This document shows, piece after piece, positions 25,628-41,997 of a stretch of 64,000 nucleotides of DNA. The first letter of the stretch is position 1. The number at the start of each line of letters is the position of its first letter. The position numbers were made by a program, and so were the translations under genes. Source of the stretch: Thermus neutrinimicus (lineage in GTDB: Bacteria > Deinococcota > Deinococci > Deinococcales > Thermaceae); the NCBI RefSeq assembly GCF_022760955.1, contig NZ_JAKTNU010000004.1, positions 1 through 64,000 on the forward strand, written 5' to 3'. The notes below the pieces were generated by a model. That model ran no database searches. It was not told the DNA's origin and saw only the letters and a program-made list of their open reading frames with translations.

Positions 25628-26725
25628 CTAACCCTGACCAAGGACCCGGCTGTACACCTCCCAGACTCCTTCTACCATCCGCTCCACGGTAAAGTGCTCC
25701 TCATAACGCTTCCTTGCGGCAGCCCCCATCTGAACTCTCAAGCCAGGATCAGCAAGAAGCCGCCTGAGTCGATCCCTAAGAAGGGCCTGCTCTCCCCGAG
25801 GAACCAGGAATCCAGTATGACCATCCACCACCGCCTCGCCAACGCCTCCCACATCCGAAGCAACCACGGGAAGCCCAGCCCGCATGGCCTCGAGGATCGT
25901 CAGCGGCAACCCCTCCCAACGGGAGGTGAGAACAAAGACCTGCGCTTCCGCCAGAACCGAGTCTATATCTACCCTTCGTCCCAAGAACCTCACTCTGTTT
26001 CCCAATCCCAACTCCTGGGCCAGGGCTTTCACCTGCGGCAATAAGGGCCCATCCCCCACCAAATCAAGGGTCCAGCTTAGGTCTTGCAACTCGGCAAGGG
26101 ATTTCAACAAAGGCCCGTGATCCTTTTGCGGGGAAAACCGCGCCACCATTACCAGCCTTGGGGGTTCAAGGCCTGGCAGCGCACGCTGTGCTGTGTCCGG
26201 CACACCATTCCATACCACCGTCAAGCGGTCTTCTGGGGCTACGCGGTTCTCCAAAGCCAGCTTAAGGTCCTTGTGAGAAACGCAAATGACCCCATCGCCC
26301 AGCCTTCCAGCCAGCCTTTCCAGGACCACGGCCAAAGTTCTCCGGGCAGGATGCACGCCCTCGGTAAACGCCCAGCCATGGGCGGTAAACACACTTCTGA
26401 CCCCGGCAAGGCGGGCGGCCAAGCGTCCTACAAAGCCCGCCTTAGAGGAGTGGACGTGTAGGAGGTCTGGTTTTATGTCCCTGAGCAACATCAGCACCTC
26501 CCCCACGGCCGCCACATCCTTCAAAGGCGAGATGGGCCACACAAGGTGCCTAAGTGTGTGGACTTTTACCCCTAAGGCCCATGCCTCATCCACCAGGAAG
26601 CGGTCCTTATCCTCCCCAACTGCCAAATGGAGCTCCGCTCTAGGGCGGAAAGCCTTGAACAGATGGAGAAGGTGAACCTGGGCGCCGCCTGGTTCGGCGC
26701 GGGTGATTAGGTAAAGGATTCTCAC
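25628..26725 (-). CDS. Glycosyltransferase family 4
   Basis: 365 aa GT-B glycosyltransferase. N-terminal acceptor domain (LITRAEPGGAQVHLLHL) and C-terminal nucleotide-sugar domain with VARFSPQKDHGPLLKSL, LVGDGPLLPQV and the E-x7-E motif in SRWEGLPLTILEAMRAGLPVVAS. The linkage and sugar donor cannot be read. Starts with GTG 26725. Probably extends the lipid-linked repeat unit begun by the neighbouring phosphotransferase. Confidence 0.92.
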   Translation of the reverse strand: MRILYLITRAEPGGAQVHLLHLFKAFRPRAELHLAVGEDKDRFLVDEAWALGVKVHTLRHLVWPISPLKDVAAVGEVLMLLRDIKPDLLHVHSSKAGFVGRLAARLAGVRSVFTAHGWAFTEGVHPARRTLAVVLERLAGRLGDGVICVSHKDLKLALENRVAPEDRLTVVWNGVPDTAQRALPGLEPPRLVMVARFSPQKDHGPLLKSLAELQDLSWTLDLVGDGPLLPQVKALAQELGLGNRVRFLGRRVDIDSVLAEAQVFVLTSRWEGLPLTILEAMRAGLPVVASDVGGVGEAVVDGHTGFLVPRGEQALLRDRLRRLLADPGLRVQMGAAARKRYEEHFTVERMVEGVWEVYSRVLGQG

Positions 26726-26734
26726 GGCCTATCC

Positions 26735-27994
26735 CTATGCCTGGATCCTAGAGTGCCCACTCTTTAGATAACCTCGCGATTCCTCACGCAACACTTTGCC
26801 AACCGCCCACAAGATAGCAAGACCGAGCCAAAACATGCTGTTGCGCAAGTTATACGTTCCCAGACTGTACACAAGGGGCGCCAAAAGGAGTACCCGTAGC
26901 CACACTCGGGGAAGGGACACCCACACCTGCCGGATAAGTAGGACTATAAGCGCCACCCCTGGTACTCCGTAGTAAAATACAATGCCTGCCAGCGTCGAGT
27001 GAATCTCACCCAAAAATGTGGTCTCCTCCGCCCAGCGCTCATTAGCACCTTCCCCTGCCCCCAGGAACAGGTATTCCGGGAATTTCCATAGGCGATCATA
27101 TCCCCTTTCCTCCAAATTCTGCTCTCCTTTAGAAATTCCCTGTTTTACGCGATCCACGTAAAATAGAGTTTGCTGGGCCAACTTTTCCTGCAAACCAGAT
27201 GCCCTTTCATCCGAAGCCCCCAACAATGCTACCAACAAGCCAAGAGCCACAATAAAGACAGAGGTTGGTAGGGCCACCAAAAGTTTTTCTACCACTCTTC
27301 TCCGCAAGCGAATCCCATGAAAAACGTAATAAATACCGAATCCCAGAACAATGGTAGCAAATCCTAGGAGCCCCGACCGCGAAGCCGATGCTAACAAAGC
27401 CACAGCACCAAGTACGAGGGCAATCCACGACCACCAAGTAAGCTTAAATCGTAGAGAGTAATCACTCACAAGCACTATAATCACAGCCCAAAGAAGCCAG
27501 TGCGCCAGCTGGTTCGGATCGTTAAAGGTTCCCATGAAACGGCTTTCTCCAAAGAACCTACCCTTACCAAAAGCAAATACTGCCACCTGCAATCCTATCA
27601 ACGCAAGAAACACGACTCGTGTGAGATTCATGGCCCTTGTAGCATCGAGATAGAATATCTGTAGGACAGCCCAAAGGAGTCCAAAATTGTAGAGATAGTA
27701 TAAGGAACTGACCAAGGTGTGCCAATCTCCATAAAAGAGGTAAACGATAAGGTTAACTACCGATGCATAAACAGCGAACAGCGCCGCAGGGACCATAACC
27801 CTGCTTTGCCATAGAAACCTACGACGGAACAGCAATAAAAGGACCACAACAACCACGCCAAGCATGTGGCTTAGTTGCGGCAAACCACTTTCCCAAAGGT
27901 AAAACGGTGTTAGCCACAATTGTAGACCAAAAATTAGCATTATTAGGGCCCGTGAACCGCCGGTTGCAAAATTGCGCGTGTAGTCCCTTGCCAT
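26735..27994 (-). CDS. wzy: O-antigen polymerase/ligase-like membrane protein (Wzy)
   Basis: 419 aa with about 11 hydrophobic helices and one larger polar loop (about 275-310; SDERASGLQEKLAQQTLFYV then EQNLEERGYDRLWKFPEYLFLGAG), the layout of Wzy/WaaL proteins. The loop residues and GAGEGANERW match what is seen in O-antigen polymerases. Assigned as polymerase by its place among wzx, wzz and glycosyltransferases. The DNA is much richer in A/T than flanking genes. Confidence 0.75.
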   Translation of the reverse strand: MARDYTRNFATGGSRALIMLIFGLQLWLTPFYLWESGLPQLSHMLGVVVVVLLLLFRRRFLWQSRVMVPAALFAVYASVVNLIVYLFYGDWHTLVSSLYYLYNFGLLWAVLQIFYLDATRAMNLTRVVFLALIGLQVAVFAFGKGRFFGESRFMGTFNDPNQLAHWLLWAVIIVLVSDYSLRFKLTWWSWIALVLGAVALLASASRSGLLGFATIVLGFGIYYVFHGIRLRRRVVEKLLVALPTSVFIVALGLLVALLGASDERASGLQEKLAQQTLFYVDRVKQGISKGEQNLEERGYDRLWKFPEYLFLGAGEGANERWAEETTFLGEIHSTLAGIVFYYGVPGVALIVLLIRQVWVSLPRVWLRVLLLAPLVYSLGTYNLRNSMFWLGLAILWAVGKVLREESRGYLKSGHSRIQA

Positions 27995-28120: not shown

Positions 28121-29440
28121 CTAGCTGTGTCTTTCATTCAACGCGTCCAGGAGTTGCGAAAATCGACGCGCCATTTTTCGGTGACTGTATTCCTCGACCA
28201 CTTCCCACTTTCCTCTGTACACGACCTTACCCTCCCTTTTATATTCACTATACCACTCCAAGAGAATGCTCCGAAGCTCCTGAGGAGATCGCGCATAACG
28301 CCCCGCACCCGTTTCCTGAAGAAGTTTTGCAATCACGCCCCCCTTTCCACCAAAGGCCAAAATTGGTCGTTTAGCAGCGAGGTATTCAAAAAGTTTGCCC
28401 GTGTAAATGCCTTCTTCCCTTGGGTCTTTCCAATCCAAAAGAAGCAGAACTTGCGCCTGACGCTGCTTTGCCAAAACCTCTGCACGAGGCACAGATGGAA
28501 GCAGCCGGACTACATCCTGCAACTTGAGTTTCCTTATATGCGGAATGAGCCATCCGTGATCACTTCCATAAAAAGTAACTGTAACATCAGATGCATATAT
28601 ATGTCCCTCTGAAATGAGTTCGCTCAGAACATAAAAGAACGGTGTTGGGTCTCGCATACCGCCATAAAGGCTACCTGAGTAGAGAAAGCTCATGTCTGTA
28701 GTTAGAGGCTCACTTTCAAGGGCTACCTCTTCCGGGTCAAACCCATTCGTGATTACTTCAACGGCCTTTTCCTTATGAAGAAAACGGAGCTTCTCGGCGT
28801 AAGGCTCCGACACGGTAATTAAAGCATCGGCCTCCTCTAAGGTTTTTCGTTCGAGTCTCCTATCAAAAAATTTCCGCAGAGGGCTCGCAAAATAGTAATA
28901 GCCGTAGTAAGGATCTTGAGTCCATAAGTCCCTAAAATCAGCAATCCAGGGAAGCCCTGATTCTACTTTTAAAGTCCTAGCGATGAGGTGGCTCGTAGGC
29001 GGACCAAAGCTACTTATAATTGCGTGAAATTTCTCATGGGCCAGCAAGGAACGCCCAGCGGCAACCGCGTACGGATACCATGCTTTTTGATTATCGGGAA
29101 AAATGAACGTCCGGGTAGCCCGTTTTACTGTATCAACCAGCGTCCGGCTTAAAGGCGTCCGAATGGGCTCGTCAACTCGGAAAACGCCAGCCTTATCCCT
29201 GTATCCACGGATGCCCAACCAGCGAAGATTTCTCAGCAACAGCTCCCCCACATCCCCAGGATAGGGAGTCTCTACAACATTGAAGCGTGGGTCTGGTTGC
29301 CCTGGCAGCTTAGCGGTAAGAATAACGGGCTCCCATCCAAACTCAGGTAAGTATTTTGCTAAACCCCTCAACCGAAGCGAGGCAACACCCGGTCGTGGTG
29401 GGAAAAAGAAGCTTACCACTAAAACACGTTTTTGCTCCAT
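28121..29440 (-). CDS. Glycosyltransferase, GT4-like
   Basis: 439 aa from ATG 29440, which has GGAGGAATCC upstream. GT-B fold: N-terminal SFFFPPRPGVASLRLRGLAKYLPEFGWEPVILT, central LPWIADFRDLWT and VSEPYAEKL, and a C-terminal domain with LFEYLAAKRPILAFG. Differs from classical GT4 in the weak E-x7-E. The long leader-like extension to 29524 is rejected. AT-rich relative to Thermus genes, like wzx and wzy. Confidence 0.85.
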   Translation of the reverse strand: MEQKRVLVVSFFFPPRPGVASLRLRGLAKYLPEFGWEPVILTAKLPGQPDPRFNVVETPYPGDVGELLLRNLRWLGIRGYRDKAGVFRVDEPIRTPLSRTLVDTVKRATRTFIFPDNQKAWYPYAVAAGRSLLAHEKFHAIISSFGPPTSHLIARTLKVESGLPWIADFRDLWTQDPYYGYYYFASPLRKFFDRRLERKTLEEADALITVSEPYAEKLRFLHKEKAVEVITNGFDPEEVALESEPLTTDMSFLYSGSLYGGMRDPTPFFYVLSELISEGHIYASDVTVTFYGSDHGWLIPHIRKLKLQDVVRLLPSVPRAEVLAKQRQAQVLLLLDWKDPREEGIYTGKLFEYLAAKRPILAFGGKGGVIAKLLQETGAGRYARSPQELRSILLEWYSEYKREGKVVYRGKWEVVEEYSHRKMARRFSQLLDALNERHS

Positions 29441-30519
29441 AGGATTCCTCCCCCAGCCAAAAGCGTAGCCACTCCCGCAGCCGCGCGTCCATTCCCGTAG
29501 GGAAAAATCAGAGCACCATCCCAAACGTTAAGAAAACAACCCACTAGAGATTCCACATCTTTTGGCGGGCACAAACGATTCCATCCAGACTCCACCAGCT
29601 CCACCCACTCGGTCTCGTCCCTTAGGGTAGCGCACGGCACGCGATAGAAGAAGGCCTCCTTCTGCACCCCACCTGAGTCGGTGGCAATAAGTCGGGCATT
29701 CTTCTCCAGCATCACCATGTCCAGGTATCCCACGGGTTCAATGGTCAACATCCTGTCCAAGAGCTCCTCCAGGCCATAGGCTTCAGCCCGCTTGCGGGTA
29801 CGAGGGTGCACGGGGAAAACCACCGGCACCTCCCGGTGCACCTGGGCCAGGGCCTCCAAGATAACCCTTAGTCGTACGGGATCATCCGTGTTCTCGGCCC
29901 GGTGAACCGTGGCAAGGATATAGCCCTTCGGGGCCACATTCAAGCGCTGGAGTATCTGGCTTTCTCTCTCGGCCTTCTCTCCATAGTAAAGAGCGGCATC
30001 GTACATCACATCCCCCACCAAGTGCACCTTATCAGCAGGAATACCCTCCCGTAGGAGGTTTTGTACGGCCGTTTCCGTGGGAGCGAAAAGAAGGTCCGAT
30101 ACGTGGTCAGTGAGGACCCGATTGATTTCCTCTGGCATACGCCGGTTAAAGGAGCGTAGACCGGCCTCCACGTGGGCCACGGGAATGTGCAGCTTGGCCG
30201 CAGCCAGGGCCCCCGCCAGGGTACTGTCCGTGTCCCCGTAGACCAAGACCCAATCGGGCTTCTCTTTCAAGAGAACCCCCTCTATGGCCTCCAGCATGCG
30301 GCCCGTGTTTTGCCCATGGGTTCCCCCGCCTATACCCAGGTGGTAATCGGGTTCCGGAATCTCCAGCTCCTCAAAGAAAACCCGGCTCATGTTGTCGTCA
30401 TGGTGCTGGCCCGTATGGACCAACACTTCCCGAAGTCCAGGTGTAGCCCTAAGAACCCGCGACACCGCCGCCGCCTTGATGAACTGCGGCCGGGCACCCA
30501 CCACACTGACCACCGTCAT
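29419..30519 (-). CDS. wbpI: UDP-N-acetylglucosamine 2-epimerase family (WbpI-like)
   Basis: 366 aa non-hydrolysing UDP-GlcNAc 2-epimerase family member (VVGARPQFIKAAAVSRVLR, LVHTGQHHDDNMSRVFFEEL, VYGDTDSTLAGALAA, HVEAGLRSFNRRMPEEINRVLTDHVSD, TDSGGVQKEAFF). With wbpA, B, D and E next door, the likely substrate is UDP-GlcNAc3NAcA, giving UDP-ManNAc3NAcA (WbpI role); plain WecB activity cannot be excluded. Overlaps wzx by ATGA and the next glycosyltransferase by 22 bp. Confidence 0.85.
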   Translation of the reverse strand: MTVVSVVGARPQFIKAAAVSRVLRATPGLREVLVHTGQHHDDNMSRVFFEELEIPEPDYHLGIGGGTHGQNTGRMLEAIEGVLLKEKPDWVLVYGDTDSTLAGALAAAKLHIPVAHVEAGLRSFNRRMPEEINRVLTDHVSDLLFAPTETAVQNLLREGIPADKVHLVGDVMYDAALYYGEKAERESQILQRLNVAPKGYILATVHRAENTDDPVRLRVILEALAQVHREVPVVFPVHPRTRKRAEAYGLEELLDRMLTIEPVGYLDMVMLEKNARLIATDSGGVQKEAFFYRVPCATLRDETEWVELVESGWNRLCPPKDVESLVGCFLNVWDGALIFPYGNGRAAAGVATLLAGGGILWSKNVF

Positions 30520-31778
30520 GCTCCTCCCCCGCCCTCATACTGTAGCCGATGCACCAAGAAAAGCAAAATGACAAAATAGGCTCCATATGTCCCCGCCATC
30601 AGGAGGGATATACCCCATACCGCCTCTACCGGCCCAGAAAACCTGAGAAACCATAGGGGGCTTAGGACAGCCCCCAGGGAAAGAAAGTCGTACAAAAGCT
30701 TCAACCAAGACCAAGGGGAGAGAAACACCACCCGACTGACCGGGCTAACCGCTAACTGAAGGGTGACCCAGGGAGCCATAGCCCCCAGCATCTGGCCTGC
30801 CAACTCCCACTCGGGCCCAAATACCCAGGTTGCCACCTTGGGAGCAAAAAACCAAAGGACAAAACCCAACGCAAAACCCATAAGCCCTAGCCCAAAGGAA
30901 ACTCTCAGAAAAAACGCCAAAAGTCGTTTTGGCTCCTGGCGAAGCATTATAGAAGCGCGCCCATAAAACACATCGGCCACCGCGGTGCCAATCAAGCTTA
31001 CAGGGAGTCCAACCACCCTTTGTGCAAGGGCGAGAGCCCCCCCCGCAGAAGGCCCGTACAAGGACACGAAGAGGGGAACCGGGGCAACCAAAACCAATGT
31101 GTTTACAAAACTTGAAGGGAGCTGAATAACGGGATACGTCCAGTACGCCAAAAGAACGCGAGGGGCAAAGGCAGGTCTCAGGCAGGAGAGACCCCGGAAT
31201 AGCCATCCCAATGACACCAGCCTCCCCAGCGTCTCCCCAAGGAGCAGTCCCATGGAACCAAAAGGGCTCAAAACCAACTGCAAGAGCACCTTGGACCATG
31301 CCTGGGCAACGGTGAAACGGCCAATCACCCCAAATCTTTCCCTGCGCAGCGCAAAAAAACGCAATACAAGCCCAAAACCGGTGGAAGCCAAGGCGATAAA
31401 GGCCAAAAGTGTTGCCAAAGGAGAGAACACGCCATAACCCAGAGCACCCCCTTGCCGCAGGAACTCAAATGCGAAAGCTCCAAGCAGAGATGTCAGCAAA
31501 ACAAGAACAAGACCGCTGCAGCACAGCAACAAGGCATCTTCGTCCTTTCGGGCGGCCACGATCGCCACCTCATATCTCAGGGAGGTTAAAACCGAGGCCA
31601 AGCCAAGAAAACTGACAAAAAGCCCCCAGCTGCCCATATCATCCGGACCGTAAACCCGCGTTAAAATGGGGGAGGCCAGCACCGCGACAAGTTGGGCCAA
31701 AGCGGTACTCCCCCCGATAGCCAATACTCCACGGAAAAAATGGCTTTTTAGGGGAGACCAGAAAGATGGGTTCTTCAT
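30516..31778 (-). CDS. wzx: Polysaccharide flippase (Wzx, MATE/MOP superfamily)
   Basis: 420 aa, about 12 hydrophobic helices. The N-terminus GVLAIGGSTALAQLVAVLASPILTRVYGPDDMGSWGLF is typical of Wzx/RfbX flippases that move lipid-linked repeat units to the periplasm. Its ATG overlaps the TAA of the aminotransferase gene and its stop overlaps the epimerase start, so it sits firmly in the operon. AT-rich. Confidence 0.9.
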   Translation of the reverse strand: MKNPSFWSPLKSHFFRGVLAIGGSTALAQLVAVLASPILTRVYGPDDMGSWGLFVSFLGLASVLTSLRYEVAIVAARKDEDALLLCCSGLVLVLLTSLLGAFAFEFLRQGGALGYGVFSPLATLLAFIALASTGFGLVLRFFALRRERFGVIGRFTVAQAWSKVLLQLVLSPFGSMGLLLGETLGRLVSLGWLFRGLSCLRPAFAPRVLLAYWTYPVIQLPSSFVNTLVLVAPVPLFVSLYGPSAGGALALAQRVVGLPVSLIGTAVADVFYGRASIMLRQEPKRLLAFFLRVSFGLGLMGFALGFVLWFFAPKVATWVFGPEWELAGQMLGAMAPWVTLQLAVSPVSRVVFLSPWSWLKLLYDFLSLGAVLSPLWFLRFSGPVEAVWGISLLMAGTYGAYFVILLFLVHRLQYEGGGGA

Positions 31779-32887
31779 TACGACAAGAAGGTTACTAAAG
31801 GCCCAACTACTTTCTCCTGCGCGCCCCCTTCCAAAAAGGGTCCCATGGGCAAGGAAAGGACCTCGCCCGCCGCCCTCTCTGCCAGCGGTAAAGCTCCTTC
31901 CGGATAGCCATACACCGGCAACCGGTGGAGGGGAATGGGGTAATAGACCATGGTGCCGATAACCGCCTCTGCCAGGGCTTGTTGGACCATATCCCTTTTA
32001 CCCCCGAGAATCCGCACCGTGTACTGGTGGAAGACGTGCCCTTCGGAAACCTCGGGAAGGACCAGGTCAGGAATCCCGGAAAGAAGCTGGTTGTAGCGCC
32101 GGGCCACCTGACGCCGCTTTTCGTTCCACCGATCCACATGGGGCAGCTTGACCCGCAGGATAGCCGCCTGAAGGGCATCCAGGCGCGAGTTATACCCCAC
32201 CATCTCGTTAAAGTACTTGCGCCTCGAGCCGTGCGCCCTGAGCATCCGCGCCAGCTCAGCTACCCCGTCGTCGTCGGTGACCAGCAAACCCCCATCCCCA
32301 TAGGCCCCCAGGTTCTTGCTGGGGAAGAAGGAGAAAGCCCCCGCATGCCCCAAGGTCCCCACCTTTTTGCCCCGGTAGGTGGCCCCAAAGGCCTGGGCGC
32401 AGTCCTCCAGCACCTTAAGCCCATGCTCCTCCGCTATGGCCAGGATGGCATCCATCTCCGCCGGGCGGCCGTAAAGGTGCACGGGAAGGATGGCCTTGGT
32501 CCGAGGGGTGATGGCGGCCGGGATGAGGTCGGGATTGATGTTGAAGGTTTTGGGATCTATGTCCACAAAAACCGGCGTGGCCCCCACCAAACTTATCGCC
32601 TCGGCGGTGGCGAAGAAGGTAAAGGGCGTGGTGATCACCTCGTCCCCAGGGCCTACCCCCAGGGCCCTTAGCCCGATCACCAAGGCATCGGTGCCGGAGT
32701 TAAGCCCGATGGCATGCTTGACGCCCAAGTACTCCGCCACCTCCCTTTCAAAGGCCTCCACCTCGGGGCCGAGGATGAACTGCCCCGAGCGCAACACCCG
32801 GGTGATGGCCGCCATGAGGTCATCCCAGAGCGCCTCCACCTCCGGGGTGAGGTCCAGGATGGGGATGCGGTTCACTCCACCCGCCAT
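31778..32887 (-). CDS. wbpE: DegT/DnrJ/EryC1/StrS aminotransferase (WbpE-like)
   Basis: 369 aa PLP aminotransferase acting on a nucleotide-linked keto sugar. [52 protein letters not shown] and the PLP-lysine site [14 protein letters not shown] are diagnostic. In the Wbp pathway it aminates C3 of the UDP-3-keto-GlcNAcA made by WbpB, using glutamate. ATG 32887 has GGGGAGAGGG upstream and overlaps wbpD by 16 bp. Confidence 0.92.
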
Positions 32888-33453
32888 ACCCTCTCCCCTT
32901 CCTTGCGGTAGCGCCGGCCGCATTCCCTGCACTGTGCCTCCTCCCCCTCAGGGGCAAAGCGCAGGGGAAGACCGCACTCGCAAGCATACCCCACGATCCG
33001 GGCCGGCACCCCGGCCACCAAGGCATAAGGGGGCACATCCTTGGTAACCACAGCCCCGGCGGCCACAAAGGCCCATTCCCCAATGGTCACCCCACAGACA
33101 ATGGTGGCGTTGGCGCCAATGGTAGCCCCCCGCTTGACCAACGTCCGGAGGTAGTCCTCGCTGCGATTGCGGGGAAAGGCCGCCCTGGGGGTGCGCACGT
33201 TGGTGAAGACCGCGCTGGGGCCCACGAACACATGGTCCTCCAAGACGACCCCCTCGTACAGGGAGACGTTGTTCTGTATCTTGCACCCCCGGCCCATCCT
33301 CACCCCTTTGGCCACAAAGACGTTTTGGCCCAAGGTGCATTCCTCCCCGATCTCCGCCCCCGGCATGATATGGCAGAAATGCCATATTCGGGTACCACGG
33401 CCTATCTTGGCGCCCTCATCCACGTAGGCGCTTTCGTGCACGAAGTATTCCAT
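32872..33453 (-). CDS. wbpD: Hexapeptide N-acetyltransferase (WbpD-like) with C-terminal Cys4 motif
   Basis: 193 aa. Left-handed beta-helix repeats ([IV][62 protein letters not shown]) form the acetyl-CoA enzyme that acetylates the 3-amino group. The helix ends at about residue 155; residues 157-184 add CECGLPL and CRECGRRY, a zinc-ribbon-like tail that smaller WbpD/WlbB enzymes lack. ATG 33453 has GGAGTAGGG upstream. Confidence 0.9.
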
Positions 33454-33455
33454 CC

Positions 33456-34373
33456 CTACTCCAGGAAGGCATGCCGGACCCCAGGGCGGGGGACAACCAC
33501 CTCCGCCCGGCGCACCCGGGCGGTCACCTCAATACCCGGCCGGGCTTCCTCCAGGCCGAATCCCTCCCCAGCCAGGGTACGGCGGTAGACCTCGGTGTGC
33601 AGGTCGGTGAACCCCTCGGAAAACTCCACCTCCTCCCCCTCGATGCGAATGGAGCGGTAGGTGCGTTGGCCTCGAGCCTGAACCTCTTGGGGAAGAAAGC
33701 GGGGGTCTATGGAAAGAAACCAGCGCACCTGGGCCCTTTCCAGCTCTAGATACCCAGCCACCGTGGTGGGCGTGCGCAGGTGGACCTCGAGGACCTCCAC
33801 CCTCCCAAAGTACCAAAGGAGAAGGTCAAAGAAATGGATGCCGATATTGGTGGCCACACCGCCGCTCTTGGCCTCATCGGCCTTCCAGCTCTTCTGGTAC
33901 CAAGGCCCGCGGCTGGTGATGTAGGTGAGCACCACCTGCCTCTTCCCCCCTTCCCCTTGCAACCGTTCCCTCAAGGCCAAGAGGGCGGGATGAACCCGAA
34001 GCTGCAAAACCGTGTACACCCTTTTGCCCGTGCGGGCCTCCATGGCCGCCAGGCGGTCCAGGGACTCCGGTTCCACCACCAAGGGCTTCTCGCATAGCAC
34101 ATGGGCCCCCTGGCGTAAGCCCAAGCGGATATGGGCCTCGTGGAGATGGTTGGGGCTCACCACGGAAACCCAGTCCACAGGGTGGTCCTCCAGGTAGGCC
34201 TCAAACACCTCGGGCTCACGGAAGAACTCCGCGTTGGGGAAGTAGCTATCCAGTACGCCCACCGCATCGAAGGGATCCAAGGCCGCCACCAGATCCCCCC
34301 CCACCTCCTTGATGGCCTTGAGGTGGCGGGGAGCGATGTAGCCGGCGGCCCCGATCAAGGCAAAGCGCTTCAT
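33456..34373 (-). CDS. wbpB: Gfo/Idh/MocA oxidoreductase (WbpB/WlbA-like)
   Basis: 305 aa NAD-dependent dehydrogenase. N-terminal Rossmann motif ([22 protein letters not shown]), the family's catalytic ECP-type motif as CEKPLVV, and the C-terminal substrate domain with [20 protein letters not shown]. In the pathway it oxidises C3 of UDP-GlcNAcA. Starts in an ATGA overlap with the end of wbpA. Confidence 0.92.
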
Positions 34374-35695
34374 AACAAGGTCACCTTGGGATGCTTGAGA
34401 TGGCGGGTAGCCCCCCGGGTGTCCAAAACCCGCCTAGCGTGCTCCAGGATCCAAGGGTAGTCAAAGGCCGAGTGATCCGTGGTGATCAGGACCAGGTCCT
34501 GTTCCTCCAGCCGCTTTGGGGTTAGGTCCACGCTTTCCATCTCCAAGCCGTGCTCCTGGAACCGGGGCACGTGGGGGTCGTGGTACTGGACCTCGAGGCC
34601 CAGGCGCCTTAAGCCCTGAATCACCCGGATGGCCGGGCTTTCCCGGTAGTCGCCGATGTCCTTCTTGTAAGCCACCCCTAAGACCAAGACCTTGGCGCCC
34701 TTGATGGGAATCCCCTCCCCCGCCAAAAGGCGAAGGGTTCTCTCCACCACGAACTCCGGCATCTTGCGGTTGATCTCACCCGCCAAGGCGATGAAGTGGG
34801 TGTTGAAGTTGTACTCCTTGGCCTTCCACTCCAGGTAGTGGGGGTCTATGGGGATACAGTGCCCGCCCACTCCGGGGCCCGGGTAGAAGGGCATGATGCC
34901 GAAGGGCTTGGTGAAGGCGGCGTCCAGCACCTCCCACACGTTAAGCCCCATGCGGTCGCAAAGGAGGGCCAGTTCGTTCACCAAGGCGATGTTGACCGCA
35001 CGGAAGGTGTTCTCAAAGACCTTGACCAGCTCCGCCGCCTTGGCGCTGGAAACGGTGACCACCCGCTCTATGGTCTGGCCGTAAAAGAAGGCCCCCACCT
35101 CCAGGGAACGCGGGCCACACCCGCCCACCACCTTGGTGGTGTTCTTGGTGGTGTAGCGCTTGTTGCCGGGGTCCACCCGCTCGGGGGAGTGCACCAGGAA
35201 GAAGTCCTCCTCCACCTTGAGGCCCCGGGCCTCGAGGAGGGGGAGCATCACCTCCTCCGTGGTGCCCGGGTAGGTGGTGGACTCGAGGCTAATGAGCTGG
35301 CCTGGCCTCAGGTGCTCAGCGATGGCCTCCGTAACCCGCACCACGTACCGGAGGTCTGGGGTGAGGTTCTGGGTAAGGGGCGTGGGCACGGCAATGACGA
35401 TGACGTCCATCTCGGGTACCCGGCGGAAGTCGGTCTCCGCCCGGATCAACCCCCGGGCCACCAACTCCTTAAGGTCCTCATCCCGCACGTCAGGGATGTA
35501 GTTTTCCCCCCGGTTCACTTTCTCCGCCCGCCTGGGGTTTTGCTCCACCCCGATGACCCTGAACCCCACCTTGGCCTTCTCCACCGCAAAGGGAAGGCCC
35601 ACGTACCCCAGGCCCACCACCCCCACCACCGCCTCACGGGTGGCAATTTTCCGTTTGAGCTCTTCCAGCAGGGATGTCGTGGACAACTCCGGCAT
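34370..35695 (-). CDS. wbpA: UDP-N-acetylglucosamine 6-dehydrogenase (WbpA-like)
   Basis: 441 aa UDP-sugar dehydrogenase. N-terminal VVGLGYVGLPFAVEKAKVGF, the central SLESTTYPGTTEEV and the catalytic cysteine site PGPGVGGHCIPIDPHYL are intact. It oxidises UDP-GlcNAc to UDP-GlcNAcA. ATG 35695 follows GGAGGAGGGGGA; the ATG at 35722 lacks such a site. First gene of the leftward polysaccharide locus. Confidence 0.93.
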   Translation of the reverse strand: MPELSTTSLLEELKRKIATREAVVGVVGLGYVGLPFAVEKAKVGFRVIGVEQNPRRAEKVNRGENYIPDVRDEDLKELVARGLIRAETDFRRVPEMDVIVIAVPTPLTQNLTPDLRYVVRVTEAIAEHLRPGQLISLESTTYPGTTEEVMLPLLEARGLKVEEDFFLVHSPERVDPGNKRYTTKNTTKVVGGCGPRSLEVGAFFYGQTIERVVTVSSAKAAELVKVFENTFRAVNIALVNELALLCDRMGLNVWEVLDAAFTKPFGIMPFYPGPGVGGHCIPIDPHYLEWKAKEYNFNTHFIALAGEINRKMPEFVVERTLRLLAGEGIPIKGAKVLVLGVAYKKDIGDYRESPAIRVIQGLRRLGLEVQYHDPHVPRFQEHGLEMESVDLTPKRLEEQDLVLITTDHSAFDYPWILEHARRVLDTRGATRHLKHPKVTLL

Positions 35696-35766
35696 TCCCC
35701 CTCCTCCCAGGAAGGATACCATGCCCTTTACCCCATCTGCGTGTGGAGCTCCGGGTCCGATCCCGG

Positions 35767-35782
35767 TAGAATCCCAGGCATG
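35767..35782 (+). promoter_or_regulatory. Leaderless promoter -10 of the LptD-like gene
   Basis: TAGAAT at 35767-35772, 7 nt before ATG 35780. No ribosome-binding site is present in the 20 bases upstream of the ATG. Confidence 0.55.
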
Positions 35783-37399
35783 CGGCGGCTACTGGTTTTG
35801 GGGGCTTTCCTGGGCCTCGCCCTGGCAGGGCCCTGCAGGGAGAGGCCCTACACCCTGGAAACCGAGGACGGCCTCCTGGGGGGCCAGGAGATGAGCTACG
35901 ACGGAGAGGTCCTGGTCTTCGAGGGCCAGGCCTGCCTGGAGCGGGAAGGGCTTTACCTGGAAGCCCCCGCCATCCGCTACCTCGAGGAGGAGGGAAGCTT
36001 CCAGGCGGAAGGCCTAAAGGGGGAGGCCGAGGGCTGGCAGGTGGAGGCCCGGGAACTGGTGGGGAAGGAGCTAAAGGGGGTGCGCCTTGCCCGGGGAAGG
36101 CTTAAGGCGGAGGTCAGCCGGCTTCGCCTGGAAAAGCCCCTTAAGGGGGAGGGCATCTTCCTGGAAAGCCCCGCCTACCGGGTCAAGGCGGCGGAGGGAA
36201 GCTTCACCCGGGAGGAGGCCCGGCTCAAAGGCTTCCTCGCCACCCCTTGCCCCTGCGGGGAGGACGTGCGCTTGGGGATGGAGGAGGCCACCTTCCTGGT
36301 GGCCACGGGGGAGGTTAAGGGGGAGGCCACCCTTGGGCTGTGGGGCCTGGAAATCCCCTTGGGGGAAACCCGGGCGAACGCCAACCGCCGCCCGGACCTG
36401 AGAAGCCCCCTGGTCCTCTCCAGCTCGGAAGCGGGAGGCTGGACCTTGGGGCTACGGGACTTCCCCCTTCCCAGGCCCGGGGAGGAGCTCGGCAGGTGGG
36501 AGAGGAGGTTCACCCTCCTGGCCACGGGCCTAGGCACCCCTCAGGAAGCCCTGCGCCTGGGCCTAAGGGAAGGGGGGCGGGGGGCCGAGGTGCGGTTCGG
36601 CTATGCCCCCGGGGTACAGGCCTACTGGGACGACCTCTTCCTGGCCGCAAGCCCCAACCCTCCCGATGCCGATACTCCCCGGCTGGAGGCCCGCTACACC
36701 CCCACCCTTCGCCTAGGGAACCTCACCCTGAGGCCCTTCCTGCGGTATGCGGAGACCTCGAGGAGCCAGGGGGCCACGGTGGGCCTCGAGGGGGGGTACC
36801 GGGAAACCCTTAGGGAAGGGCCCTTTAGCCTGACCCTAAGCCCCAGCTTCCTCCTCGCCCTCTATCCCTTCACCCCCTACTCCCCTTACCTGGCCCTTGG
36901 GGGGGGCCTGGAGGGGGCCTTCCGGGAAGGGGACCTCGCCCTGAGGGCCGCCTATGCGGGGAGGCTGGAACCCCTTTCCCCCACCCCACCCTTCACCTTT
37001 GAGAACCGGGACGAGTTCCAACGCCTAACCCTGGAAGGGCGGTATGGCCCCTTTGGCCTCCGCTACACCCTGGATAACCCCTTGGGCCAGCGCCTGGACC
37101 GGCTGGAGGGGGAGGTCCAAGACCTAAGCCTCGGCACCTTCCGCCTGGGGTACGTGCGGGGAAGCCTGGAGGAGATCCGCCTGGGGTACGCCATGCCCCT
37201 TCCCGAGCGCACCTGTTGCCAGGCCTTTTGGCTTGCCCCCGAGGTGGGCCTAAACCGGGGAGGCCTCACCCGCCTCGGCCTCACCCTCCGCTACTACGAC
37301 GGCTGCTTCACCTACGAGGTGCGCTGGCAGAACGTCCTTAAGGGCCAGTACGCCGAGGCCTTGGGCCAGAGCCTTTCCTTTAGTCTTGCCCTGCGCTAG
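35780..37399 (+). CDS. LptD/OstA-like outer-membrane protein
   Basis: 539 aa. Signal peptide (RRLLVLGAFLGLALA), an N-terminal OstA-like beta-jellyroll (about 25-180; YTLETEDGLLGGQEMSYDGEVLVFEG), then a large C-terminal part rich in alternating, Gly/aromatic strands ending in SLSFSLALR, as in a beta barrel. This is the plan of LptD, which inserts LPS into the outer membrane, though the protein is shorter than proteobacterial LptD (about 780 aa) and the LptD disulfide cysteines are not conserved. The long upstream open frame is the antisense of wbpA. Confidence 0.75.
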   Translation: MRRLLVLGAFLGLALAGPCRERPYTLETEDGLLGGQEMSYDGEVLVFEGQACLEREGLYLEAPAIRYLEEEGSFQAEGLKGEAEGWQVEARELVGKELKGVRLARGRLKAEVSRLRLEKPLKGEGIFLESPAYRVKAAEGSFTREEARLKGFLATPCPCGEDVRLGMEEATFLVATGEVKGEATLGLWGLEIPLGETRANANRRPDLRSPLVLSSSEAGGWTLGLRDFPLPRPGEELGRWERRFTLLATGLGTPQEALRLGLREGGRGAEVRFGYAPGVQAYWDDLFLAASPNPPDADTPRLEARYTPTLRLGNLTLRPFLRYAETSRSQGATVGLEGGYRETLREGPFSLTLSPSFLLALYPFTPYSPYLALGGGLEGAFREGDLALRAAYAGRLEPLSPTPPFTFENRDEFQRLTLEGRYGPFGLRYTLDNPLGQRLDRLEGEVQDLSLGTFRLGYVRGSLEEIRLGYAMPLPERTCCQAFWLAPEVGLNRGGLTRLGLTLRYYDGCFTYEVRWQNVLKGQYAEALGQSLSFSLALR

Positions 37400-37411
37400 A
37401 CTGAGGCCATG
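37397..37411 (+). promoter_or_regulatory. -10 box built on the LptD-like stop codon
   Basis: TAGACT (37397-37402) starts with the TAG stop of the preceding gene and stands 6 nt before ATG 37409. Confidence 0.5.
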
Positions 37412-38347
37412 CCCGAGGTGGAAGGGCTGGGGGAGAGGCTGGAAAAGCTGGAAGGGGTGGTGGAGGCCACCCTCCAAGTCCTCCCCCCCTTGGTGCAAGA
37501 CCTTTCGCGGCGCATAGATACCCTGCGGGAAGAGGTCAAGGCCGAGCTGAGGGAAACCCGGACCCATACGGAAGGCCGGTTGGGGTCCTTGGAGAAGCGT
37601 CTGGGCGAGGTGGAAAACAAGCTGGAGGCCCGGCTTGCTTCCACGGAAAGGCGCTTGGCGGAGGGGGAAACCAGGCTGGAGTCCCGGATGGACCAGGTAC
37701 AGGTCCGTCTTGAAGGGCAGATCCAGCAGGTCCGCCAAGAGCTGGAAGGCCGGATTGCCCAAGTGGAAAGCAAGTTGGAAACCCGCATCGGCCAGGTCCA
37801 GAGGCACCTGGGTGAACAAATCCACCAGGTGGAAGGGAGACTGGAGGCCAGGATCGGCCAGGTCCAAAGCCAACTGGAAGGACAGATCCAGCAAATCCAA
37901 AAGGAGCTGGACACCCGAACGAAGCAGCTGGAAACCCACATCGGCCAGGTCCAGAGGCACCTGGGTGAACAAATCCACCAGGTGGAAGGGAGACTGGAAG
38001 CCAGGATCGGCCAGGTCCAAAGCCAACTGGAAGGACAGATCCAGCAAATCCAAAAGGAGCTGGACACCCGAACGAAGCAGCTGGAAACCCACATCGGCCA
38101 GGTCCAGAGCCACCTGGGTGAACAAATCCACCAGGTGGAAAGGAGACTGGAGGCCAGGATCGGCCAGGTCCAAAGCCAACTGGAAGGACAGATCCAGCAG
38201 CTGGAAAGCCGGATGGCAAAGCTGGAGACCAGGCTGGAAGCCCTGCGCCAGGAGGTCAAGGCGGATATCAACACCGCCTTCAACAAGGCCATGCTGGTCT
38301 TCACCGCCATCGGCGCGGTGTTGGCCCTGCTAACCCTTCTCCACTAA
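37409..38347 (+). CDS. Tail-anchored hendecad coiled-coil protein with internal repeats
   Basis: 312 aa, almost all coiled coil, with a single C-terminal hydrophobic helix (about 288-311; AMLVFTAIGAVLALLTLL), so probably membrane-tethered with a long soluble rod. The core repeats in 11-residue units (IGQVQRHLGEQ / IHQVEGRLEAR / IGQVQSQLEGQ / IQQIQKELDTR plus a 7-residue link), grouped as a 51-residue block present 2.6 times. Eleven-residue periodicity gives a right-handed coil as in apolipoproteins. Family not recognised. Its place between Lpt-like genes suggests an envelope-spanning or scaffold role, by context only. Confidence 0.8.
   Translation: MPEVEGLGERLEKLEGVVEATLQVLPPLVQDLSRRIDTLREEVKAELRETRTHTEGRLGSLEKRLGEVENKLEARLASTERRLAEGETRLESRMDQVQVRLEGQIQQVRQELEGRIAQVESKLETRIGQVQRHLGEQIHQVEGRLEARIGQVQSQLEGQIQQIQKELDTRTKQLETHIGQVQRHLGEQIHQVEGRLEARIGQVQSQLEGQIQQIQKELDTRTKQLETHIGQVQSHLGEQIHQVERRLEARIGQVQSQLEGQIQQLESRMAKLETRLEALRQEVKADINTAFNKAMLVFTAIGAVLALLTLLH
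37787..38200 (+). repeat. 153-bp tandem repeats inside the coiled-coil gene
   Basis: Three copies starting at 37787, 37940 and 38093, the last partial. The first two differ at only a few bases over 153 bp, so the duplication is recent or kept uniform by recombination. The repeat length is a multiple of three and preserves the frame. Confidence 0.9.
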
Positions 38348-38760
38348 GGCTCAACCCGCAAGGCCCGAAGGAAGAGGTTCCGGTCCTCAGGGGGCTGGTA
38401 GAGGTCGTTGGGGAAGACCAAGGCCAGGGTTCCCTTCCCCGTGGTGGTCACCCAGACCTCCACCACCCCCCGCACCTCCCCCTGCCAGAGCACCCGGCTT
38501 CCCTCCACCACCACCGCGTAAGGCCCTTTCCCGTGGGCCAGGGTGCCCTCGAGGACCAGCCCCACCCGCCCCTTCCGGCAAAGGGGGATCTCCACCACCC
38601 CGTTGCTCCATAGCTCCGCCCGCTCGGGAATGGACCCGGGAACGCAGGCTTCTTGGGTGAGGGGGGCCAGGCGGAAACCCTGGTCCAAGGACCAAAGGGC
38701 CAGGGAAACCCCGAGGGCAAAGGTCCCAAGGCCCAAAACCCAGGCCAAGACCCTCACCAC
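38344..38760 (-). CDS. Membrane-anchored beta-sandwich protein, possibly carbohydrate-binding
   Basis: 138 aa from GTG 38760 (a second GTG follows at once; GGAGGTGC precedes). An N-terminal hydrophobic helix (about 4-25) is followed by a beta-rich domain (GKGPYAVVVEGSRVLWQGEVRGVVEVWVTT, ending VFPNDLYQPPEDRNLFLRALRVEP) whose end resembles calcium-dependent carbohydrate-binding modules. No catalytic motif. It overlaps the O-antigen-ligase gene by a few bases, so the two are coupled. Confidence 0.6.
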   Translation of the reverse strand: MVRVLAWVLGLGTFALGVSLALWSLDQGFRLAPLTQEACVPGSIPERAELWSNGVVEIPLCRKGRVGLVLEGTLAHGKGPYAVVVEGSRVLWQGEVRGVVEVWVTTTGKGTLALVFPNDLYQPPEDRNLFLRALRVEP

Positions 38761-40193
38761 CGCACCTCCTTCTCCAGCACATAGCGGGGCCTTAGGGCCA
38801 GGCGGTGCTGGCTGAAGAGGAGGACCCTAAGCCGGTACTCCCCGGGAGGTAGACCCTCTGGTACCCGGAAAATAACCCGCTTGTCCCCCGGCCACTCCCA
38901 GCCCAGGCGCTGGCAGCCCTTTTGGCAAAGCCACACCTGGACCCTGTACCCCTCCCCTCCCACGAGGCGCAAGAAACCCACCCCCTCCGGGGGAAGGGCC
39001 AGGTAGGCCAGCCTGGGGGGAGGGGTGGGGGGGCGGGTGGCCAGGTAGAGGAAGGGCAAGGACCAAAGAAGGGCCACGGCCCCCGCCCAACCCAAGGTGG
39101 CGGGAAGCCTTACCCCCCGAGCCAGGGCCATCCCCCCCAGGAGGAAGAAGACCTCCCCCCGGAAGGGGCTCGGGACGCTAAAGGGGTTATCGCTCATCCC
39201 CATGGCCACAAAGGCCAGGAGGAGGGAGAAAAGGAGCCCCTCCCCCCAGGCGGCGGCCAAAAACCCCCCCACCAGGAGAAGAAGCCCCACCCCACCCAAC
39301 ACCCCGCCTTCCCCCAGGGCCTGGAGAAGGTGGTTGTGGGCAAAGCTCCACAAACCCCCAAGGGGCCTAAGCCCATCAGGGCAGGTGAGGCCCCGGGCCT
39401 CGAGGAGGGGGAAGAGAAAGCAGTCGCCAAAGAGGGTCCCCTTCAGGTAATCCCCCAGCACATAGGGCCCCACCCCCGTCCAGGGATGGGCCCGGTAGAC
39501 CTCATAGGCCCTGAGCCATAGCCCCTCGCGCCCCGAAAGGTGGGTCTGGAAGAAGCGCTCGGAAAGAGGGTTGTCGGAGGTGAAAGCGGCGAAGAGGACC
39601 AGCCCGGCTACCCCCAAGGCCCAAAACCCCCGCCCGCGGAAAAGAAGCCCAAAAGCCCCCCCAAGGAGCAGGGCCAGCATCCCCCCGCGGCTCGCGCTGA
39701 GGAGCAAAACCGCTCCCCCCAAAAGGCCCAGAAGGAGGCGGAAGGGCCAGGAATAACGGGTGTAGGCGGCAAGGAGGACCCCCACTGCCCCCATGAACCC
39801 CAGGCCCACCGGGCTATGGAAGGGGTGCATAAGCCTTTCCCCCACCACCCTGTCCCCGAAGGTCAGGTACGAGGCCAGGAAGGCCGTCAGGTAGAGGAGG
39901 AAAAGGCCATACCCCAAAGGCCTTAGGGCCCGGGATGGGGAAGGGGCCTGGAGGCCCAAGGCCACCCCCGCCCCCAAGAGGCCCAGCACGTAAAGAAGCC
40001 GGCCCAGGGCCAAGGGGAAGGCCCAGGCTTCCGGGGCCAGAAGGGCGGGAAGGAGAAGGAAAAGGGCGTAGATACCCAAAAGGCCCAGGGCCCAGGGGGA
40101 AAGCCGCCTCAGGTAACCCAAGAATAGGGGGGCTAAAAGGGCCAGGGGAGGGAAAAGGGGAGCCAAGCCCAGGGCCAGAGGCAGCCAGCGCAC
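38754..40193 (-). CDS. O-antigen ligase/polymerase-like protein with soluble C-terminal domain
   Basis: 479 aa from GTG 40193, which is 7 nt after TATATT (40206-40201). About 11 helices with a large periplasmic loop (about 190-265, RFFQTHLSGREGLWLRAYEVYRAHPWTGVGPYVLGDYL) form the Wzy_C/WaaL signature (the H-P-x-x-G-x-G element). Residues from about 378 on lie outside the membrane and look like a small beta domain (GYRVQVWLCQKGCQRLGWEW). It may transfer a polymer to a lipid or protein acceptor. Divergent from the LptA-like gene. Confidence 0.8.
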   Translation of the reverse strand: MRWLPLALGLAPLFPPLALLAPLFLGYLRRLSPWALGLLGIYALFLLLPALLAPEAWAFPLALGRLLYVLGLLGAGVALGLQAPSPSRALRPLGYGLFLLYLTAFLASYLTFGDRVVGERLMHPFHSPVGLGFMGAVGVLLAAYTRYSWPFRLLLGLLGGAVLLLSASRGGMLALLLGGAFGLLFRGRGFWALGVAGLVLFAAFTSDNPLSERFFQTHLSGREGLWLRAYEVYRAHPWTGVGPYVLGDYLKGTLFGDCFLFPLLEARGLTCPDGLRPLGGLWSFAHNHLLQALGEGGVLGGVGLLLLVGGFLAAAWGEGLLFSLLLAFVAMGMSDNPFSVPSPFRGEVFFLLGGMALARGVRLPATLGWAGAVALLWSLPFLYLATRPPTPPPRLAYLALPPEGVGFLRLVGGEGYRVQVWLCQKGCQRLGWEWPGDKRVIFRVPEGLPPGEYRLRVLLFSQHRLALRPRYVLEKEVRW

Positions 40194-40245
40194 CACGCCC
40201 AATATACGCCAAGGAGGCCCTAAGACGCTCCTCAAGATCCTCTGG

Positions 40246-40261
40246 TAAAGTGCCTCCCATG
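40246..40261 (+). promoter_or_regulatory. Leaderless promoter -10 of the LptA-like gene
   Basis: TAAAGT (40246-40251), then 7 nt, then ATG 40259. The divergent ligase gene has its own TATATT box at 40206-40201. Confidence 0.5.
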
Positions 40262-40894
40262 AGGGGACAAAGCCGCCTTCTTCTGGCCCTGGCCCTTTTT
40301 CTGGCCTCCTCCTTAGGAGCCCGCTTCGCCGCCTTCAGCGTGGAGCCCTTCGGCACCCAAAGGGTCAACCTGGACACGGGGGTAACCACCCTGCCCCAAG
40401 GGGGAATCCTCACCGACCACGAGAACGGCCTCCGCCTTAAGGCGGGCTACATCGAGTACAAGGAGGGGAGCTTCGTGCGGGCCAAGGGGGCCGAGCTCCT
40501 TTCGGAGAAGGAAACCTTCCTGGCCCAGACCCTCGAGCACGATATCCCCAAGCAGGAAGCCCGCTTTACCGGCCTCACCTTCAGCAACGCGGATTTCAAG
40601 GGGCTAAAGGCCGAGCGGGCCCTGGCCCTATTCTCCGAGGACCTCGTGATCCTGAAGGGCAGGGTGCAGGCGGAAAAGCCCAGGCTCCAGGCGGAAACCC
40701 TGGTGGTGAACCTAAAGGAGCGCGAAGCCCTGGCCCTGGGAAGCTTCACCTACCAGGAAGGAAAGGCCACCCTAAGGGGCCAAGGGCCAAGCGCCCGGCT
40801 TTACCTGCGCTTCGCCTCCGGTAAGGTGCAGGCCACCACCAAAATCCCTCCCGGGGCAGGTGCCCTGGCCCAGTACGCCAACCGCCTCCCATGA
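40259..40894 (+). CDS. LptA/LptC-like periplasmic protein (OstA N-terminal family)
   Basis: 211 aa. Signal peptide (SRLLLALALFLASSLG), then repeated beta strands of the OstA type (RLKAGYIEYKEGSFVRAKGAELLSEKE, ADFKGLKAERALALFSEDLVILKGRVQAEKPRLQAETLVVNLKEREAL). LptA-type proteins form the periplasmic bridge for lipopolysaccharide. Ends in an ATGA overlap with the LptF/G gene, which supports the assignment. Confidence 0.72.
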   Translation: MRGQSRLLLALALFLASSLGARFAAFSVEPFGTQRVNLDTGVTTLPQGGILTDHENGLRLKAGYIEYKEGSFVRAKGAELLSEKETFLAQTLEHDIPKQEARFTGLTFSNADFKGLKAERALALFSEDLVILKGRVQAEKPRLQAETLVVNLKEREALALGSFTYQEGKATLRGQGPSARLYLRFASGKVQATTKIPPGAGALAQYANRLP

Positions 40895-41997
40895 CCCTCT
40901 ACCGGCACATCCTCAAGGAAAGCCTCCCGCTTCTCCTCTTGGCCCTCCTTTTCCTCACCCTCGTCTACCTCTTCGGCTTCTTCTACGCCGGGGCCCGCTG
41001 GCTGGAAGGGGTGCCCTTGGTCAAGGTGGCGCGTTGGCTTTCCTACCACGTGCCCGGGGTCCTGGTCCAGGTTTTCCCCATCGCCTTGGTCACCACCACG
41101 GTCCTGGTCTTCGGCAGGCTTTCCGCGGAAGGGGCCCAGTTCGCCCTGCTCTCGGGGGGGATTCCCCTTTGGCGGGCGGCCCTGCCCCTGGTGGGAACAG
41201 GGGCTTTGCTGAGCGGCGCGGCCCTCTACCTGCAGGAAAAGCTGGTTCCCTACTACAACGAAAGGGTACGGGTGGCCTGGTGGGACGAGATCCATACGCA
41301 AGGGGCCGGGCTATTCCGCCTAAAGGGCCTACAGATCCCCATCGGCAAGGGACGAAGCCTCTACTTTGAGGACTTCGACATGGGGAAAAAGGAGATGGTG
41401 AAGGTGCGGATCACCTCCTTCCAGGGGGAGGAGGGCACCTTCCTCTTCGCCGAGCGGGGAAACTGGGAGGACCGGGTGATCACCCTGAAGGAGTACCGCT
41501 TCTACCGGGTGGATTTCGCCGAGGTTCCCCGGCTGGAAACCGCCAAGGACCTCTTGGCCCAGACCCGCAAGGTCTTCCGGGTGGTGAGCCAGGGGAAGGT
41601 CTTGGAGGTGGAGTCCGACCTCTCCCGGGCCCGGGCCATCGCCGACTACGCCGACACCTTCAGCTTTGGCCAGGATAGCCTCTCGGGGGCCTGGGCCAAG
41701 ATGCGGGACCCCTTTTTGGCCCCCCTGGAAAAGTGGCGGGCCCGGCTGGAGTTTCACTCCAAGCTGGCCCTGCCCCTGGCCAACCTGGTCCTGGTCCTCC
41801 TGGCCACGGCCATGGCCCTACGCTATGGCCGGAGCACGGGGCTCGCCCTGGGCCTAAGCGTGGTGCTGGCCCTGGGGTACTATGGGGCCTTCTTCCTGGG
41901 CCGCTCCTTGGCGGGGATCGGGGCCCTCCCCCCGGAGCTTGGGGCCTGGGGGGCCAACCTGCTCTTCCTCCTTTTGGGGATCAGGGCCTTACGGTAA
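40891..41997 (+). CDS. lptF: LptF/LptG family permease
   Basis: 368 aa. Three helices, a central beta-jellyroll (about 120-285), then three helices: the YjgP/YjgQ plan. Landmarks: LYRHILKESLPLLLLALLFLTLVYLF at the N-terminus, EGAQFALLSGGIPLWRAALPLV and GRSTGLALGLSVVLALGYYG. LptF and LptG are partners of ATPase LptB, which is not in the window. Only one permease is seen here; it may act as a homodimer or with a distant partner. Confidence 0.88.
   Translation: MTLYRHILKESLPLLLLALLFLTLVYLFGFFYAGARWLEGVPLVKVARWLSYHVPGVLVQVFPIALVTTTVLVFGRLSAEGAQFALLSGGIPLWRAALPLVGTGALLSGAALYLQEKLVPYYNERVRVAWWDEIHTQGAGLFRLKGLQIPIGKGRSLYFEDFDMGKKEMVKVRITSFQGEEGTFLFAERGNWEDRVITLKEYRFYRVDFAEVPRLETAKDLLAQTRKVFRVVSQGKVLEVESDLSRARAIADYADTFSFGQDSLSGAWAKMRDPFLAPLEKWRARLEFHSKLALPLANLVLVLLATAMALRYGRSTGLALGLSVVLALGYYGAFFLGRSLAGIGALPPELGAWGANLLFLLLGIRALR

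Follow-up and report, generated by a model that had tools for sequence, protein, structure and literature searches.

A probable second Lpt-type bridge in Thermus neutrinimicus, a member of a lineage without lipid A genes

The first 64,000 nucleotides of contig NZ_JAKTNU010000004.1 of Thermus neutrinimicus (the window) contain a six-gene region at positions 35780-41997 that very probably encodes a second trans-envelope bridge of the Lpt type, additional to the main Lpt set encoded elsewhere in the genome. It is likely that this second bridge replaced the export of lipopolysaccharide (LPS) in lineages that lack LPS, and on balance we favor the reading as a whole, namely a second Lpt bridge that took the place of LPS export and carries a glycolipid modified by a ligase encoded in the same region.

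All six open reading frames (ORFs) listed in the original prediction were found where they had been placed. On the forward strand lie the genes for a predicted LptD-like outer-membrane protein, here named LptD2 (35780..37399; 539 amino acids, with a signal peptide, an N-terminal beta-taco at about residues 24-160 and a C-terminal beta-barrel); a coiled-coil protein with a C-terminal membrane anchor (37409..38347; 312 amino acids, single transmembrane segment at 294-312); a predicted LptA/LptC-like beta-taco protein, here named LptA2 (40259..40894; 211 amino acids, N-terminal hydrophobic segment); and an LptF/LptG-family permease (40891..41997; 368 amino acids, PF03739, 3.2e-57). On the reverse strand, divergent from lptA2, are the mutually overlapping genes for a small protein (38344..38760; 138 amino acids, N-terminal transmembrane segment and extracytoplasmic domain) and a WaaL/Wzy_C-family polysaccharide ligase (38754..40235; 493 amino acids, PF04932, 5.4e-9). 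The lptD2 gene is spaced 9 bp from the coiled-coil gene, and lptA2 and lptF/G overlap by 4 bp. Among the six proteins, Pfam matches were informative for the permease and the ligase alone.

Folds of the window proteins and the main Lpt set

AlphaFold models of LptD2 and LptA2 drew on aligned relatives in Thermus, Meiothermus, Calidithermus and metagenome-assembled genomes of Thermaceae. The LptD2 model is all-beta (pLDDT 84.2), and in a Foldseek comparison with the PDB LptD chains took the first 28 places (E 7e-16 to 1e-5, sequence identity near 10%), ahead of pilus ushers and porins. The LptA2 model is likewise all-beta (pLDDT 84.8), and all 29 of its PDB matches at E<=1e-3 were Lpt proteins. 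As modeled, therefore, LptD2 is an LptD, with a predicted N-terminal beta-taco and outer-membrane beta-barrel, and LptA2 is a predicted beta-taco protein of the LptA/LptC type. The window LptF/G matches the PDB LptG 8frl (1.5e-6) and scores under the curated cut-offs of the LptF and LptG equivalogs TIGR04407 and TIGR04408. The structure predictions proposed as a check on LptD2 and LptA2 thus returned LptD and LptA/LptC-type folds, and the original prediction, an export set of the Lpt kind where lipid A genes are lacking, was borne out by these folds, by PF03739 and by the absence of LpxC described below; a cargo other than lipid A is what this naturally suggests.

The comparison sample comprised 111 Deinococcota genomes, 27 of them from Thermus; clade names are used where named loci carry the same sequence or closest relatives, and the codes f2, f4, f5, g7, g13 and g14 otherwise. 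LptA2 homologues occur in 98 of the 111 genomes, and LptD2 relatives are detectable in Thermaceae and family f4. Family f5 has a positional LptD2 orthologue between lptA2 and lptFG, f2 has one after lptA2, and the LptD2 profile matched positional orthologues of other families with 99.5% probability (E 6e-23). The C-terminal Cys-Cys motif of E. coli LptD (...VQYSSCCYAIRVGYER...) has a counterpart in Meiothermus LptD2 (...LRYADCCFIWRLGYQ...), and the main Thermus LptD carries ...LDRCCWAMRF... near its C-terminus. An N-terminal Cys together with the C-terminal CC is seen in the LptD2 orthologues of Meiothermus, Calidithermus and f5.

Two secreted proteins were observed beside these genes in other genomes. 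In several Thermus, lptD2 or its remnant is adjoined by a gene for a protein of about 160 amino acids with no Pfam match (L159:7144-7644, L157:6955-7440, L106:8539-9027). In several genera lptA2 is adjoined by a gene for an N-acetylmuramoyl-L-alanine amidase, identified by PF01520 at L092:6952-8052 and by sequence similarity at L095, L096, L252, L254, L255 and L229.

LptF/G is present in all of the Deinococcota genomes but one, usually in three copies, two of which stand in tandem in the examined genomes and are followed by a large LptD-like protein. In T. neutrinimicus the tandem LptG-LptF pair and an LptD-like protein of 830 amino acids are encoded on contig C1 (L145:6412-8904), and an LptC/LptA/LptA-like trio is found on contig C6. 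The 830-amino-acid protein has relatives in 106 of the 111 genomes and a DRCCW motif near its C-terminus, and its presence beside the tandem pair rules out the window LptD as the sole LptD of the cell. One LptB equivalog exceeds the NCBI cut-off (327 versus 240 bits), at a locus apart from the window. Since this main set is present elsewhere, the window set is an additional, second one; thus, the Lpt set as first described is real, but it is not the only one, and the genome also holds a fuller main set with its own LptD.

In a 2022 survey, atypical diderms including Deinococcus-Thermus were reported to have lptA, B, C, F and G but neither lptD nor lptE (PMC8871954), and this reported absence has been used in arguments on the origin of the outer membrane. 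LptD2 had no Pfam or NCBIfam match, PF04453 included, nor did LptA2, and PDB sequence searches with LptD2, LptA2 and LptD1 as queries gave chance matches only. The missing family matches may explain the reported absence of LptD, and they suggest that strong divergence kept LptD from being noticed in Deinococcus-Thermus. There seem to be two LptD-like families, which are probably invisible to sequence models; an earlier description of LptD in the phylum is possible, as subscription literature lay mostly outside our search.

LpxC, the ligase and a probable switch of LptF/G type

With LpxC alone as the marker for lipid A synthesis across the phylum, 61 of the 111 genomes were positive; LpxC is missing in T. 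neutrinimicus and every other Thermus genome (27 in total), as well as in f2 and in genera g13 and g14 of f4. Because LpxC is absent and published work describes glycolipids in place of LPS (PMC10622841), the window set is classed as an Lpt-type bridge and not as an LPS transporter, and lipid-A-based LPS does not qualify as its cargo. An ancestral presence of LPS genes in the phylum, followed by loss in part of it, has been proposed earlier (PMC5007114). The ligase family (best joined matches of at least 130 bits; the next class, apart from split fragments, lies below 45) occurs in 38 genomes, every one of them LpxC-negative, and in none of the 61 LpxC-positive genomes, an overlap of zero (Fisher p 1.6e-19, a value that ignores shared ancestry). 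Twelve genomes, some of them incomplete, have neither. The mutual exclusion spans at least three lineages, namely Thermus with its sister genus, f4 g13/g14, and f2.

Synteny suggests where the second set came from. In the lipid-A-making Meiothermus, Calidithermus and Marinithermus-type loci (L091, L092, L093, L095, L251-L255), lptA-lptD-lptFG is followed by a DegT aminotransferase gene, and the lpx cluster of these lipid A makers includes a Gfo/Idh/MocA dehydrogenase resembling UDP-GlcNAc 3-dehydrogenase. Together the two enzymes could supply the diamino sugar found in lipid A of the GnnA/GnnB type, with the DegT protein possibly being GnnB, and such a pair would tie the ancestral lptA-lptD-lptFG operon to LPS. 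In our reading, the window LptA and LptD descend from these genes beside the sugar aminotransferase, which in lipid A makers most likely serve LPS. The adjacency of lptA and lptD is kept across families and is not confined to LPS-less Thermus; lipid-A-making relatives have the pair too.

The window LptF/G has a different history. In the LptF/G tree it falls within a group from LpxC-negative clades (support 96/95) and outside the lptA-lptD-lptFG type, which rules it out as the orthologue of the Meiothermus copy in that operon. In f2 (L218, L221) and f4 (L224-L227) this LptF/G comes after mreB and, in loci with a fabZ gene call, after fabZ as well, and the corresponding spot in lipid A makers reads mreB-lpxD-lpxC-oxidoreductase-fabZ-lpxA-lpxB-like-ABC transporter. 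Downstream of LptF/G in L218, L221 and the f4 loci is a PF06925 diacylglycerol glycosyltransferase of the monogalactosyldiacylglycerol (MGDG)-synthase type, and in L218, L221 and L224 the next gene encodes a polysaccharide deacetylase. A homologous ligase lies near LptF/G in f4, and in two further f2 genomes the ligase is directly upstream of LptF/G. Ligase and this LptF/G type are close neighbors in f2 genus g7, f4 and Thermus. Genus g14 of f4 has both LptF/G types, as expected of an intermediate. By these sequence comparisons, the LPS-less lineages are marked by this LptF/G type together with the ligase.

Within Thermus, LptD2, LptA2 and the ligase are all present in 21 of the 27 genomes and all absent from five. 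The five module-less genomes are 99% complete, LptF/G is limited to the pair in four of them, and the cassette is missing where their chromosomes pass the neighboring threonine-deaminase-type gene. Placed on a tree built from main-set proteins, these absences require at least four separate losses of the whole module, and one genome retains a 92-residue 3' remnant of lptD2 beside the gene that flanks lptD2 elsewhere. Such joint presence and loss argues that the module is functionally linked and dispensable. Genome G057 has three LptF/G stretches despite having no second set.

The six genes do not form one conserved operon, because the ligase and small-protein genes lie on the opposite strand; moreover, lptD2 is separable and the coiled coil is inconstant. 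Their expected co-occurrence held for lptA-lptD adjacency across families and for joint loss of the module, and it failed for a single operon, for lptD2 linkage and for the coiled coil. The prediction thus survived both of its stated refuting conditions, folds other than those of LptD and a lack of joint conservation. The coiled-coil gene contains a tandem repeat at 37768-38199 (153 bp, 2.8 copies, 97% match), and in relatives the protein differs greatly in length or the gene is missing; its many Pfam matches were dismissed as generic coiled-coil matches. The rod is not a constant part of the module, so the presence of its gene is weak evidence for a novel Lpt component.

Polysaccharide locus, cargo and alternative explanations

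A polysaccharide locus had been noted beside the Lpt genes and is indeed there, at 23.0-35.7 kb, entirely on the reverse strand. In coordinate order it encodes a Wzz chain-length regulator (23019..24308, PF02706), an initiating sugar-phosphate transferase (24343..25590, PF02397, 6.8e-58), a glycosyltransferase (25628..26725, PF00534, 2.6e-40), a hydrophobic protein with multiple transmembrane segments that has no Pfam match and on inspection is a candidate Wzy polymerase (26735..27994), a second glycosyltransferase (28121..29524, PF13579, 1.3e-14), a WbpI-like UDP-sugar 2-epimerase (29419..30519, PF02350, 6.7e-111), a Wzx-type flippase (30516..31778, PF13440), a WbpE-like DegT aminotransferase (31778..32932, PF01041, 2.6e-132), a WbpD-like hexapeptide acetyltransferase (32872..33453, PF00132), a WbpB/WlbA-like Gfo/Idh/MocA 3-dehydrogenase (33456..34373, PF01408) and a WbpA-like UDP-sugar 6-dehydrogenase (34370..35722, PF03721/PF00984/PF03720). 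The WbpA/B/E/D/I-type enzymes are predicted to yield a polymer containing a 2,3-diacetamido uronic acid (ManNAc3NAcA). The pathway to this sugar has been described in Thermus thermophilus HB27, and Thermus outer membranes contain glycolipids instead of LPS (PMC10622841). These glycolipids have three acyl chains, one of them on glucosamine, on a glycosyl-diacylglycerol (PMC9636437), and they resemble lipid A in having an N-acylglucosamine.

The sole PDB match of the ligase family profile was the polysaccharide polymerase/ligase entry 7tpg/7tpj (6e-5, over 207 positions), which we take to be WaaL, and the window protein is accordingly a putative WaaL/Wzy_C-family ligase predicted to transfer glycan from undecaprenyl diphosphate to lipid. 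The small-protein gene adjoins the ligase gene in every examined Thermus locus with an intact ligase; the similarity of the small protein to CBM60 is weak and below the cut-off. The ligase reading frame is interrupted or split in G051, G052, G060, G062, G010 and G015, through real decay or assembly error.

In the pathway that we infer, the WaaL-type ligase would attach a glycan, with the neighboring Wzx/Wzy locus as its likely donor, to a lipid at the periplasmic face. LptF/G, possibly as a homodimer, would work with the single LptB of the cell to extract this lipid from the inner membrane, the beta-taco of LptA2 would carry it across the periplasm, and LptD2 would deliver it to the outer membrane's outer leaflet. 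The LPS-type ancestry of LptA and LptD, together with the confinement of the LptF/G-ligase pair to lineages without lipid A, makes a lipid-A-free glycolipid the most likely cargo, for example the N-acylglucosaminyl glycosyl-diacylglycerol already known from Thermus, either alone or ligated to the polymer. That the cargo is specifically a ligase-modified glycosyl-diacylglycerol is a tentative proposal. Equally tentative is the extension to Deinococcota at large, in which a diacylglycerol-anchored glycolipid, capped by a WaaL-like ligase and served by an Lpt bridge of its own, would have taken over from lipid A at least three times, with several lineages encoding it at the mreB-fabZ spot that holds the lpx genes of lipid A makers. 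Such a glycolipid would amount to an alternative 'LPS' that LPS machinery makes and exports without lipid A.

Several observations weigh against this reading. The Foldseek TM-scores for LptD2 are modest (0.3-0.4), probably owing to differing domain angles and barrel size. Comparison of LptD2 and LptA2 with E. coli LptD, LptA and LptC by hhalign gave nothing significant (<=7%), although the C-terminal Cys region is the best LptD segment for the Thermaceae/f4 profile; homology thus rests on fold, synteny and one motif, as there is no sequence-level match to E. coli. In Thermus LptD2 the C-terminal CC has become GC, with the loss of one Cys, and another CC is found at 479-480. In several Thermus genomes lptD2 lies far from the ligase/small protein/lptA/lptFG unit, and five Thermus species do without the module. 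PF04932 spans polymerases as well as ligases. No homologue of the MGDG-synthase-type diacylglycerol glycosyltransferase was detected in Thermus, so the link to a glycolipid is borrowed from other families.

The breadth of PF04932, which includes Wzy and protein O-glycosyltransferases, leaves room for an alternative in which the second set exports a short glycolipid alone, the WaaL-family protein is a polymerase or serves another acceptor (a protein or a cell-wall anchor), and the adjacency of the genes is regulatory. Thermus glycolipids and ManNAc3NAcA enzymes are both known, and a link between them is unreported (PMC9636437, PMC10622841). We consider this alternative unlikely: ligase and LptF/G type are neighbors in f2 g7, f4 and Thermus, both occur in LpxC-negative genomes only and are lost along with LptA and LptD, the sole solved relative of the ligase family is the polymerase/ligase entry, and the polysaccharide locus already has a candidate Wzy of its own. 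Less probable still is that lptA and lptD are a relic of the ancestral LPS exporter, without a cargo of their own and kept in reserve for the main Lpt set or as a bypass of it, the five losses being decay. The repeated whole-module losses, the lptD remnant, the interrupted ligase ORFs in a few genomes and the altered Cys pair of Thermus LptD2 would fit a relic, but completeness of the module in 21 of the 27 Thermus genomes would not, and the exchange of LptF/G for the ligase-joined type indicates selection for a new use.

Beta-taco grooves carry phospholipids in other protein families, and it is conceivable, though improbable, that the second set moves phospholipids or a lipoprotein-like cargo in the manner of the beta-taco bridges TamB and YhdP, while the main Lpt set already serves the glycolipid. 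Against this stand the LptF/G and LptD folds and the genes linked to the set, which encode a sugar transferase, a deacetylase, a ligase and polysaccharide functions.

For the construction of the outer leaflet in an LPS-less diderm, these results supply named genes, a tractable host in the transformable Thermus, naturally deleted species as controls and a predicted cargo. As ligase and lpxC exclude each other, lipidomics can test directly what takes the place of LPS.

Comparison with known Lpt systems

The second Thermus set shares with the E. coli LptB2FG-C-A-DE machinery a permease of the LptF/G family, a predicted beta-taco bridge, an LptD with taco and barrel, an LptB equivalog in the genome and the C-terminal CC motif, which is held by relatives of LptD2. 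It differs in having one LptF/G gene instead of two, no lipid A pathway and a ligase in the locus, in being a second copy beside a main set, and in being dispensable; no LptE was recognized, although no search aimed at LptE was made. The Thermus ligase matches WaaL (PDB 7tpg/7tpj) in its Wzy_C family and in the profile match over 207 positions, but no lipid A-core acceptor is expected for it, and it has an extra C-terminal domain and a small partner protein.

Like Thermus, the diderm Firmicutes (Negativicutes and Halanaerobiales) have a single LptF/G with OstA-type proteins and an LptD undetected by sequence; unlike Thermus, which lacks lpxC, they make LPS (PMC5007114). In Borrelia burgdorferi, an LPS-less diderm, Lpt orthologues have been described, with an LptD found by structure and glycolipids proposed as the cargo (PMC10353723). 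In Borrelia the set is the only one and includes LptF as well as LptG, whereas the Thermus set is a second one with a single LptF/G and a ligase, and in Deinococcota, unlike in Borrelia, lipid-A-making relatives reveal the switch.

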